From Candidatus Cloacimonadota bacterium (GTDB taxonomy: Bacteria > Cloacimonadota > Cloacimonadia > Cloacimonadales > JAFGVF01), in the NCBI GenBank assembly GCA_016938155.1, contig JAFGVF010000305.1, forward strand, positions 1-7,052: a stretch of 7,052 nucleotides of DNA, read 5' to 3'. Every line of letters begins with the position of its first letter. Position 1 is the stretch's first letter. Made by a program: the position numbers and the translations under genes. The notes below the pieces were generated by a model. The model was not told the DNA's origin and searched no databases. It was given only the letters and a program-made list of their open reading frames with translations. Below are positions 4,079-7,052 of this stretch, one piece after another.

Positions 4079-4531
4079 TTATATCTTTTTTAATCTATTT
4101 TGAATCTTAGTGATATGTCCGACTTCTTGCAATCTAAGTTGCTCAAATATATCAATTGCAACCTCATTTAGAGATGTAAAGGTGAGAAACATTGAATATA
4201 CTTTTTCAGTATTAATCTCTCGCTTTAAGGCAATATTCAAGACTTCAGTGCCTGTGAATCCCGGTTCTATCCTATCGGTATTGACCAGCATTTCAAGGAG
4301 TTCTGAGTCAATTTGGAGTTTCTTTTCCAGATTATCTTTAGATATAGACTCCTCCTCTTCCAGATGTCGTAATCTATTGTAATGATCTGTCTCGTCACTT
4401 GCCAACTGCATCAAAATATCTTTTACATTTTCATCGCTAACTATTTCAGCTGCCTGTTTATAAAAGCCAAAGCTTTCAAATTCAATCTTCTTGGCATAGC
4501 TGATAATCTCTTTCAGATTTAGTTCTCTCAT
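4079..4531 (-). CDS. Rubrerythrin-type ferritin-like diiron protein
   Basis: This 150-residue protein is a four-helix ferritin-like bundle without a rubredoxin domain. Two half-repeats each carry E...Y followed by ExxH: Glu17 with Tyr24 then Glu47-x-x-His50, and Glu105 with Tyr112 then Glu136-x-x-His139. These six Glu/His residues are the expected ligands of a non-haem diiron centre. There is no CxxC, so any electrons for peroxide reduction would have to come from another protein. Relatives act in peroxide or oxygen defence or iron handling, in the cytoplasm; which applies here is unknown. The ATG overlaps the stop of the upstream flavoprotein gene as ATGA (4528-4531), and AAGGAG lies 5 nt before it inside that gene, so translation is probably coupled. 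It is the last gene before the terminator. Confidence 0.88.
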   Translation of the reverse strand: MRELNLKEIISYAKKIEFESFGFYKQAAEIVSDENVKDILMQLASDETDHYNRLRHLEEEESISKDNLEKKLQIDSELLEMLVNTDRIEPGFTGTEVLNIALKREINTEKVYSMFLTFTSLNEVAIDIFEQLRLQEVGHITKIQNRLKKI

Positions 4532-6339
4532 GCTTTCTCCTTATTCCCATTCAAATATTTATCAATAGCATTAGCAGCTATATGCCCGTTGGCAATACCA
4601 TGAATCACATCAGGACCTTGAATAATATCACCCCCGACAAATAGCCATTTCAAATCTGACTGGAAACCATCATTGACTTTAATCCGCCCTCGAGCGTTAA
4701 AATCTAATCCGGCTTTCAGGTTATCGGAAATATAAGAGAGGTCCATCCCCTGTCCTATAGATTCAACTATCATGTCTGCTTCAAAGAATTTCTTCTGATT
4801 ATCATCAAACTTAGGGCTAAAACTCCCGGCTTCATCAAAGACGCTAAGACATTTAACTGCATGTAAACCTTTTATTTGTCCATTCTCAATCTCAATTTCT
4901 TTAGGACCCCAACCAGGAATAATCAGAGCTTTCTCTTCCCTTGCTTCTACAATTTCTTCTCGGTCAGCAGGCATGATATCCTCAGTTTCCAAGGAAGTTG
5001 CCACCACATTCACCTCTCCATAAGCTTGATTCTGCAAACGAGCGAGTGTTCTGGTAATATCCATTGCCACATTTCCACCACCTATAACCACAATCTTTTT
5101 TGCCAAATCAATCTCATTACCTAAGGTTACTTCTCGTAGAAGATCTGTTGCAAAATAGACACGAGCATGTTCAGAACCGGGGATTCGAGTACTTCTACCC
5201 AAATGTAAGCCAGTACCGGCAAAGACTGCATCAAAATCAGCATGGAGCTGTTCAAGAGTTATATCTATACCTATTCGTGTATCAAATTGAACCTCGACCC
5301 CAAGAGACAAGATGTAATCTATATCCTTATCAATCTGCTCATACGGCAAACGATAGTCAGGAATACCGTAGCGCATCATACCACCACTATTAGGCAGAGC
5401 TTCAAATATCTTCACTTGATAGCCCATAACGGCAAGATAGTAAGCAGCAGACAGCCCGGATGGTCCTGCACCTATTATTGCGACCTTCTTATCTAATCTA
5501 TCATCGGCAAGGTGCTCTGTTCCTAATACTTCTGCATATTTTTCAGGTGGTATTTGGTCAGCAATATAGCGTTTAAGCCAACGAATCGCAAGGGCTTCAC
5601 CATTGTGATGCAAGGCACAAGCATCTTCACAGCGATGTGTACAGATACGACCACAAATCTCAGGAAGAGGATTTGTTTCGTATAATATTCTAAAGGCATT
5701 CTCAATATCATCTTCCCTAATTGCAGCAATATATGCCGGAATATCCATGTGAGCAGGACAAGTCGCAGTGCAGAGACCACATTCAAGACAGCGTTCAGCC
5801 TCTTTCATAGCCTGCTCTTTATTATATCCTTTCACAATCTCTATAAATGACTTGTCCCGATTTTCAGGGTGTAACTCACCCATATCTATCCGGTCAAAAT
5901 CGATTAGAGCTATCTTCTCATCACGCTTGTATCCCTTTTCATTATTCTGCCATTTAGTCTTATCACTACCTGGTACAAAACGGAAATCCTCTGCATTGTC
6001 TGAAATCCAAGTATATTCATTTGACATTGTCAATGCACCGGTTGGACATATATCCACACAAAGTGCACACCAGCAACAGCGTCCATAATCTATTTTAGGT
6101 CTTAATCCGCTGTTTCCATCCTTGCTCTCTTGTCCTTCGACAGGCACCATATCAATTGCTGCATTCTGGCAAATCTCTTCACAACTTCCACAACCAATAC
6201 ACTTATCAAAGTTATTTTGATGAAAGCCTCGGTAATTATCAGCACCGGGACGCTCAGTTAAAGGGTTCTTTATCGTCCATGGTTCTTTTGCTGCATGTTT
6301 CCAAACAGATAAAGGATTTATAATATCTTTTAAACTCAT
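4528..6339 (-). CDS. NuoI-like ferredoxin fused to GltD-like FAD/NAD(P) oxidoreductase
   Basis: The 603-residue protein joins two modules. Residues 1-128 resemble complex I subunit NuoI: a YRG motif at 36-38, then two 4Fe-4S sites, Cys47/50/53/57 and Cys88/91/94/98, with an extra Cys89. Residues 170-595 resemble the glutamate synthase small subunit and NfnB-type diaphorases. They carry Cys184/187/190/194 and Cys229/233/237/241, an FAD-binding GAGPSG (290-295), GGMMRYGIP (319-327), an NAD(P)-binding GGGNVAMD (420-427), and a C-terminal VGGDIIQGPDVIHGIANG (568-585) that closes the FAD site. It should pass electrons between NAD(P)H, FAD and several 4Fe-4S clusters. It lies 3 nt after a NuoD-like gene, where nuoH/nuoI would be expected, which suggests it is the electron-input arm of a complex-I-like membrane complex and not a glutamate synthase subunit (no gltB is seen here). 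The GAGAGG ribosome binding site overlaps the nuoD stop. Confidence 0.92.
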   Translation of the reverse strand: MSLKDIINPLSVWKHAAKEPWTIKNPLTERPGADNYRGFHQNNFDKCIGCGSCEEICQNAAIDMVPVEGQESKDGNSGLRPKIDYGRCCWCALCVDICPTGALTMSNEYTWISDNAEDFRFVPGSDKTKWQNNEKGYKRDEKIALIDFDRIDMGELHPENRDKSFIEIVKGYNKEQAMKEAERCLECGLCTATCPAHMDIPAYIAAIREDDIENAFRILYETNPLPEICGRICTHRCEDACALHHNGEALAIRWLKRYIADQIPPEKYAEVLGTEHLADDRLDKKVAIIGAGPSGLSAAYYLAVMGYQVKIFEALPNSGGMMRYGIPDYRLPYEQIDKDIDYILSLGVEVQFDTRIGIDITLEQLHADFDAVFAGTGLHLGRSTRIPGSEHARVYFATDLLREVTLGNEIDLAKKIVVIGGGNVAMDITRTLARLQNQAYGEVNVVATSLETEDIMPADREEIVEAREEKALIIPGWGPKEIEIENGQIKGLHAVKCLSVFDEAGSFSPKFDDNQKKFFEADMIVESIGQGMDLSYISDNLKAGLDFNARGRIKVNDGFQSDLKWLFVGGDIIQGPDVIHGIANGHIAANAIDKYLNGNKEKA

Positions 6340-6342
6340 CTA

Positions 6343-7052
6343 TTACCTCTCTATTTCAGGTGGGCAAGTATGAAGAGAAACCATCAATGTTGCCAAATCA
6401 GAAATTGAAATGTTGGTTGCTAATTTTTCTAATACTGATATCGCGTGCGTATAACTTGCACCTCGAGCATAAACTCTACGAGGGTATTTTGTCCCGTCAG
6501 AAACCATGTAAAACCCATGCTCTCCTCTTGTTGACTCAGCTCTCTTATATGTTTGTCCAGCCGGTATTTTCCAATGCAGAACATTGGGTAGCTTAGCTTG
6601 GATTTCTCCCCCCTCAGGCATTTTATCTAAGATCTGTGAAATCAGATTCAGACTCTGATGAAGTTCGCGATAGCGTAATTTTGCTCGTTCATAAGCATCA
6701 CTTTCAGTACCGGTAATCATCTCCATTTCCAATTCAGGATATTTAAGATAGGGATTTGTGATTCTAATGTCATTTTCTACACCACAAGCTCTGGCATTTG
6801 GACCGGTAATCCCATATTCACTGATCATCTCCTTAGGAATATAACCCAGACCGGTAAGGCGTGACTTCACAATTGCATTGTTAAAAAAGTTTCGTTCCAC
6901 ATCAACAAGTAACTCTTTAGTCTGTTTGATCTGAGCTCTAACTCTATTCCTGAATCCTGACGGCAAGTCTTTACGAACGCCACCTGGTATCATATACATA
7001 TGATAAACTCGTCCTCCCGTCATCTCTTCAAAGAGATCTAACCAAAAGTCTC
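6343..7052 (-). CDS. nuoD: NuoD-like NADH dehydrogenase 49 kDa subunit, 5' end outside window
   Basis: The C-terminal 235 residues are present; the frame is open to the right edge, and the ATG at 7023 is internal, because DFWLDLFEE precedes it in frame. Family blocks are LFEEMTGGRVYHMYMIPGG, GPNARACGVENDIR, the arginine-rich helix ERAKLRYRELHQSLNLI, and ESTRGEHGFYMVSDG. This is the 49 kDa quinone-site subunit of complex I, homologous to the large subunit of membrane-bound NiFe hydrogenases. The C-terminus SLHTCPPEIER has only one Cys where catalytic hydrogenases have DPCxxC, so the NiFe ligands are incomplete and a hydrogenase role is unlikely. The membrane complex could be complex I or an Mbx-like relative. 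It is followed after 3 nt by the NuoI-GltD fusion gene. The rest of the operon is outside the window. Confidence 0.92.
   Translation of the reverse strand, partial: DFWLDLFEEMTGGRVYHMYMIPGGVRKDLPSGFRNRVRAQIKQTKELLVDVERNFFNNAIVKSRLTGLGYIPKEMISEYGITGPNARACGVENDIRITNPYLKYPELEMEMITGTESDAYERAKLRYRELHQSLNLISQILDKMPEGGEIQAKLPNVLHWKIPAGQTYKRAESTRGEHGFYMVSDGTKYPRRVYARGASYTHAISVLEKLATNISISDLATLMVSLHTCPPEIER

Follow-up and report, generated by a model that had tools for sequence, protein, structure and literature searches.

A fused MbsN/NuoI-NfnL subunit that likely lets an Mrp-linked MBS/MBX-type complex of Cloacimonadota oxidize NAD(P)H directly

Introduction

MBS is regarded as a step between the hydrogen-evolving complexes and complex I. 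The hallmarks of the Pyrococcus furiosus enzyme, in the parts of its description available to us, are the absence of residues H38 and Y87 of Nqo4 and a proximal cluster with three cysteine ligands only (C28, C93 and C123 of MbsJ), C25 being nearby and dispensable (PMC7684303). Mrp-linked MBX complexes are treated in two further sources, likewise available in part: mbxA of Thermotoga maritima is upregulated 4.36-fold with S0 (PMC9431562), and the Mrp-Mbx of the Riftia symbiont is co-expressed with the reductive tricarboxylic acid cycle (PMC11636981). Group 4g hydrogenases with Mrp have also been described, and in the available part of that source the text names Tenebribacter, Stygibacter and Zophobacter, and the table gives none for Zophobacter (PMC8542988). 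Here we analyze a fusion of an MbsN/NuoI-type ferredoxin domain with an NfnL-like flavoprotein, encoded on a contig of 7,052 nucleotides (JAFGVF010000305.1; the whole contig is referred to as the window) from a Candidatus Cloacimonadota bacterium (GCA_016938155.1; genome G000), whose assembly comprises 2.38 Mb in 427 contigs and is 72% complete. We propose that this fusion likely makes an Mrp-linked MBS/MBX-type complex oxidize NAD(P)H directly instead of ferredoxin, and that the window copy probably uses NADH.

Results

The Fused Protein and Its Family

The N-terminal part of the window protein contains two [4Fe-4S] motifs (C47,50,53,57 and C88,91,94,98), followed by two further ones (C184,187,190,194 and C229,233,237,241), a flavin adenine dinucleotide (FAD) motif near G290 and a second Rossmann motif (GGGN, residues 420-423), with E451 occupying the site of an arginine run. 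Two N-terminal [4Fe-4S] motifs ahead of FAD and NAD(P) Rossmann domains, the layout of NfnL/GltD-type proteins, are all found in it; Pfam recognizes 4Fe-4S ferredoxin domains, Fer4_20 and Pyr_redox_2. Fold searching placed NfnL nearest to the FAD domain, and was uninformative on the N-terminal domain because the NfnL part fills its match list. An initial structure prediction from 14 alignment rows (mean predicted local distance difference test score of 64.9 for the N-terminal part) was superseded by a later one. Sequence and domain searches bore out in part what a previous sequence-only reading of the window had noticed, namely four 4Fe-4S motifs plus FAD and NAD(P) folds in one chain, 3 nucleotides downstream of the stop of a 49 kDa (D) subunit gene. 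The same reading had seen a possible novelty in the covalent fusion; at the level of sequence families, the fusion is already known, with no function assigned, as NF010590 (PRK13984, “putative oxidoreductase”). This NCBIfam model matches the window protein over its whole length (residues 2-600 on profile positions 7-610) with 867 bits, below its curated cut-off of 946 bits, and the NuoI and GltD families give partial matches only. The nearest protein relative belongs to another cloacimonadote, Candidatus Zophobacter franzmannii (90% identity). G000 encodes a second copy on contig C330, a paralogue with 52% identity of the arginine (RR) type described below, located after H, B, C, and D genes. 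A plasmid search with the window yielded nothing beyond matches of less than 60% identity.

The Operon in Relatives

Loci were taken from the best 80 of 591 genome-contig matches, plus relatives, lineage counts being lower bounds; 67 non-redundant full-length fusions were retained after the removal of 11 duplicate loci. A D gene is located upstream of the fusion in 65 of the 67 loci, the exceptions being L028, whose sequence starts inside the fusion, and the gammaproteobacterial L040. The H, B, C, and D genes together with an Mrp module were found in 38 of the 40 loci whose upstream sequence reaches 8.5 kb or more (L017 lacks a detected B gene, and L040 has none of the set), and in none of the 24 GltD-like controls that the search also returned. 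The order in L033, MrpE-F-G-B-B-C-D-D-H-B-C-D-fusion, amounts to 13 genes, in agreement with the 13 subunits given for the T. maritima MBX in the accessible part of its description (PMC9431562). The two Mrp/Nuo-type antiporter subunits form one protein of about 1020-1050 amino acids in many loci (L015, L018, L030, L043, L095), giving operons of 12 genes, and are separate in L025, L033, L065, L066 and several Gammaproteobacteria. In G002, a genome of the window’s family, the entire operon is present on a single contig (L114). Judging by the organism names in the records, fusions occur in at least 12 phyla; within the window’s order they were found in 13 of 39 genomes (8 with the glutamate or E-type, 8 with the RR-type), and both types coexist in G000, G001, and G005.

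Active-Site Residues Point to an MBS/MBX-Type Complex

Since D is represented in the window by its C-terminal part alone, the quinone and ligand residues were taken from relatives and from the paralogue. For both copies, the nearest solved chains to D and B are L and J of MBS, well ahead of all complex I chains, and all three subunits compared are nearer to MBS than to complex I. The position of H38 is not histidine in 61 of the 62 readable D proteins, and that of Y87 is valine in all 62. Equivalents of MbsJ C28, C93, and C123 are kept in 51, 52, and 51 of 52 B proteins, respectively; the residue after C28 is glycine in 51 of the 52, with no adjacent cysteine pair, and the C25 position is occupied by glycine in 30 and by cysteine in 21. 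As to the nickel-iron ligands, the L1 pair has Glu or Asp instead of its second cysteine in 62/62 readable D proteins, and the remnant L2 residue is Cys or Tyr, with Leu and Glu at positions -3/+3 in all 57 readable proteins (of 65); the remnant cysteine (CPPEIER) is present in the window’s own D fragment. The four cysteine ligands of group 4 [NiFe] hydrogenases are therefore lacking, which argues against a hydrogenase, and no NiFe large-subunit family was found in the five genomes of the order searched for it.

NuoA was absent from all 39 genomes of the window’s order, 9 of 14 control genomes being positive. The fusion loci yielded neither a separate nuoI nor a NuoF-like match above 45 bits, nuoE and nuoG not having been searched with references of their own; a 42-bit NuoF match in L029 is confined to the ferredoxin-like end of the reference. 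The expectation of the sequence-only reading that the fusion stands at the place of a separate NuoI/MbsN-type subunit is thus upheld, and the finding that would have spoken against it, nuoEFG plus nuoI in the same operon, was not made. It had also pointed to the upstream operon, where in relatives the H, B, C, and D genes do occur, together with an Mrp arm; its assignment to complex I fails, given the absence of NuoA, the missing quinone-head residues and tandem NuoB cysteines and the Mrp/MBS-type arm. This Mrp-type membrane arm places the operon in the MBS/MBX type in its broad sense; the stand-alone MbsN serving as ferredoxin port in MBS sensu stricto is missing, and covalent fusion to an NfnL-like module is found in its stead.

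Two Classes of Fusion

After the second Rossmann strand, 22 fusions have YRRR or a similar run, and 45 (the window included) have xSLE/xALE or a similar motif and a longer helix. In homologue sets this position is Glu in 123/123 and Arg in 117/117 proteins, a biased sample gathered from two seeds. Among the loci, Ser occurs in that column in two of the 45 E-type rows and Thr in one of the 22 RR-type rows; the two Ser probably reflect a shifted alignment, an LE motif having been the sorting rule for every E-type row. Flavoproteins of the same fold use arginines behind this strand to bind the 2'-phosphate of NADPH, and NADH is favored when an acidic residue takes their place. By this analogy, the E-type is predicted to prefer NADH and the RR-type NADPH. 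A CLE motif also appears in some GltD-like control proteins, the E motif not being exclusive to fusions.

The two classes are divided by one fully supported branch in a quick tree (Shimodaira-Hasegawa-like approximate likelihood ratio test only). The split stays when the motif is masked, with supports of 94 (E) and 95 (RR), in a tree comprising 56 of the 67 fusions and 16 of the 24 outgroup loci, the rest having failed the motif or length rule. One change separates the fusions from the 16 GltD-like rows in this tree, and the fusion may have arisen once.

Neighboring Genes and Further Observations

The features of the window’s operon are collected in Table 1. The 5' end of the D fragment lies past the contig edge, its C-terminus reading ...HTCPPEIER; the ferritin-like gene is the probable last gene of the operon. 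An Mrp set of G000 is located on contig C173, unconnected to the window.

Table 1. Features of the fusion operon in the window.
Feature	Position	Strand	Remarks
MbsL/NuoD-type large subunit (D), C-terminal part	6343..7050	(-)	235 amino acids; Complex1_49kDa 211 bits; relatives best match MbsL
MbsN/NuoI-NfnL fusion	4528..6339	(-)	603 amino acids; glutamate (E) type
Ferritin-like (rubrerythrin-type) protein	4079..4531	(-)	150 amino acids; start overlaps the fusion stop (ATGA)

With a first profile (six Cloacimonadota seeds, 18 newly found), 24 of the 67 loci showed a ferritin-like gene at a distance of up to 0.6 kb on the downstream side of the fusion, and none of the 24 control loci did; a second profile added L040 (partial), L051, L053, and L057, and in L068 the gene is at the opposite end of the operon. 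Its di-iron ligands (E17, E47, H50, E105, E136, H139) are kept in 28-31 of the 32 rows, a set that includes three fused extensions of doubtful status. The protein possibly protects or services the open-iron cluster. Fusions of about 750 amino acids, extended at the C-terminus by about 150 residues of uncertain kinship, occur in the Spirochaetota loci L029, L035, and L070; these extensions were left out of the ferritin-like counts, because they matched the profile only after inclusion in it (BLASTP E 0.62). In L040, an E-type fusion followed by a partial ferritin-like frame spans 10001-11800. By eye, a small CBS-repeat-like protein follows the fusion in L015/L118, L115, and L027.

Other parts of G000 hold related genes. 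L007 (contig C310, 3-4757) contains a NuoF-like gene and then a 1111-amino acid protein with an NfnL-like part; these resemble soluble bifurcating Stn/NfnABC enzymes and represent another NAD(P)H system of the same genome. L096 (contig C299) has, by eye, Hyf/formate-hydrogenlyase-like membrane genes, and no large subunit was found in this incomplete assembly. In the window itself, a stretch of about 1.1 kb (1822-2943) between TetR-type and dienelactone-hydrolase-type genes lacks a convincing gene and contains short near-repeats (ACCGTGG); an Rfam scan of the window, this stretch included, gave no match.

Discussion

Proposed Function

In the scheme that we infer, which covers the electron donor, cofactor preference, acceptor, direction and pumping, as well as every catalytic step, a hydride from NADH would be transferred to the FAD of the NfnL part, from which single electrons would pass through its two [4Fe-4S] clusters, and then through the two clusters of MbsN/NuoI type, reaching the NuoB/MbsJ-type subunit at its proximal cluster. 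This last cluster is predicted to resemble that of MBS, being held by three cysteines with one iron left open, and would be the site where sulfane sulfur (polysulfide) is cleaved; the Mrp-type membrane arm, coupled to the electron flow, would pump H+ or Na+. The RR-type copy of the same genome would preferably be fed with NADPH. The sequence-only reading had wired NAD(P)H to N6a/N6b-type clusters within complex I: the alignment of the flavin and NAD(P) site with such clusters would stand, its complex I setting does not, and the replacement of NuoEF (and perhaps NuoG) that it considered is the wrong comparison, as the item replaced would be ferredoxin at an MBS/MBX complex.

By textbook potentials, the step from NADH to polysulfide spans about 50-60 mV, and with such a small gap the complex may work near equilibrium and be reversible. 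A broader proposal, which we put forward as tentative and rather doubtful, is that of an overlooked and widespread respiratory ion pump between NAD(P)H and sulfane sulfur, free of quinone and ferredoxin, with NADH and NADPH classes side by side in some genomes, and working reversibly, so that fermenters would dump reductant on sulfur and sulfide oxidizers would obtain NADH from sulfide.

Several points weigh against direct NAD(P)H oxidation as proposed here. The small potential gap would make forward pumping marginal. The argument from Glu in place of Arg is borrowed from other flavoproteins of the fold, and no assayed enzyme of the fusion-complex type was found in the literature searched. The window’s own B, C, H, and Mrp genes fall outside the contig, and the evidence on them comes from relatives and the RR-type copy; L049 retains a histidine at the H38 position, and the fusion of L040 has no operon in the 10 kb upstream, and could represent an orphan gene, a remnant or an enzyme acting on its own. 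Carriers do have NuoF-family genes outside the fusion loci (contig C310 of G000, and three or four matches in each of five further genomes searched), so that a partner in trans is possible. On a tree of D, from which 6 of the 67 were dropped for a D too short or absent, the E/RR label changes five times; no strict joint inheritance of cofactor type with the large subunit was thus seen, and the two have been reshuffled. Lastly, in two Thermotogota loci (L065 and L066) an NfnS and a separate NfnL gene directly follow the operon, beside its RR-type fusion.

Alternative Explanations

That last arrangement favors a bifurcating role, in which the NfnL-type FAD would split NAD(P)H electrons, sending some into the MBS-type chain and others to a second acceptor such as ferredoxin or an NfnS-like protein. 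The fusion’s FAD domain is nearest to NfnL, where that flavin bifurcates, and the NfnS of L065 (NfnS/NfnL region 11842-14090) matches 4ylf_A at E 5.5e-109. Yet the Thermotogota NfnS is accompanied by its own NfnL, and an NfnS-like gene was found in 3 of the 67 loci only (the third, L051, far off and on the other strand), the search covering loci and not whole genomes; we consider bifurcation quite improbable overall, and these data hint that it is live mainly in Thermotogota. Reverse running in part of the range, with an ion gradient driving electrons from sulfide or polysulfide to NAD+ through the E-type complex without quinone, is unlikely, though with somewhat more in its favor. According to the organism names in the records, E-type operons are present in Thiodiazotropha, Sedimenticola, a Lamellibrachia symbiont, and Halochromatium, all lineages of sulfur oxidizers, and a small potential gap would permit both directions; the Riftia symbiont MBX is counted, in the part of the source at hand, with the complexes whose function or direction is unknown (PMC11636981). 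Against it, Cloacimonadota are described as fermenters in the available part of another report (PMC8542988). MBS, besides, is known as a reductase.

Very little speaks for the complex I of the sequence-only reading, with its NuoEFG arm replaced by the fusion and quinone as acceptor, beyond the general relatedness of D, B, C, and H to subunits of complex I: the quinone-head His/Tyr and the NuoB cysteine pair are absent, NuoA appears in 0/39 genomes and MBS is nearer for three subunits, and a complex I with a replaced N-module was rejected on active-site residues, nearest relatives and the absence of NuoA. Scarcely more can be said for ferredoxin still entering at the MbsN part, the NfnL part being a ferredoxin:NAD(P)+ oxidoreductase docked on the ion pump. 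NfnL clusters do exchange electrons with ferredoxin; P. furiosus MbsN accepts ferredoxin electrons, according to the portion of the source available (PMC7684303). This arrangement, marginally the less probable of these two, leaves the kept three-cysteine site and the T. maritima sulfur response unexplained. Finally, the database name “glutamate synthase small chain” would suggest a soluble glutamate-synthase-type subunit beside an unrelated operon, and the Ace Lake metagenome-assembled genomes, credited with an Mrp-linked group 4g Mbh in the accessible part of their description (PMC8542988), a group 4 [NiFe] hydrogenase. Neither is really credible: operon linkage in 65/67 loci excludes the former, and the replaced NiFe ligand positions of D and the family searches (none in 5/5 genomes) the latter.

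If the proposed NAD(P)H-fed complex is right, its built-in NAD(P)H dehydrogenase would represent a separate route of a complex I relative to NADH, with NfnL replacing NuoEFG; the electron bookkeeping proposed for sulfur reduction in T. maritima would change, and the Mrp-Mbx of sulfur symbionts would gain a testable donor.

Comparison With Described Systems

In the literature searched we found no recognized NuoI/MbsN-NfnL fusion or NAD(P)H-fed MBX; older MBX reviews (Schut and colleagues) lie outside its coverage, and a prior mention is possible. The T. maritima MBX and the Riftia symbiont Mrp-Mbx are the same kind of Mrp-linked complex, the former drawn as ferredoxin-fed, and neither an NAD(P)H module nor cofactor classes are mentioned for them in the available parts of the sources (PMC9431562, PMC11636981). 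T. maritima gave the sole NF010590 match at E 1e-200 among 14 control genomes, above the curated cut-off, and its Thermotogota relatives L065 and L066 have an NF010590-family fusion inside the operon; the T. maritima protein would, by this comparison, be its MBX subunit. A Thermotogota-seeded protein search gave no T. maritima name among the 120 matches listed. As for group 4g hydrogenases, each 49-kDa-type gene found in two Cloacimonadota genomes (G033, G001) is the D of a fusion operon, which, together with the lack of a NiFe family, suggests that the Mrp-linked “group 4g hydrogenases” of some Cloacimonadota may be the fusion complex instead.

Another system compared, a proposed ferredoxin-fed entry to the quinone chain, likewise lacks the NuoEFG module. 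Compared with the NfnL of NfnI (PDB 5JFC/5JCA/4YLF), the fusion is joined to an MbsN/NuoI domain, an NfnS-like gene is rare among its loci, and the E-type lacks the arginine run of the RR-type. MBS of P. furiosus (PDB 6U8Y; PMC7684303, in its available part) provides the best solved match for D, B and the N-terminal domain of the fusion. Both complexes have lost the quinone residues, keep the three cluster cysteines and combine H, B, C, and D with an Mrp-type arm; in the fusion complex the two antiporter subunits are often merged into a single protein, and, whereas MBS receives ferredoxin electrons via a stand-alone MbsN, the MbsN-type subunit of the fusion complex bears an NfnL-like FAD/NAD(P) module.
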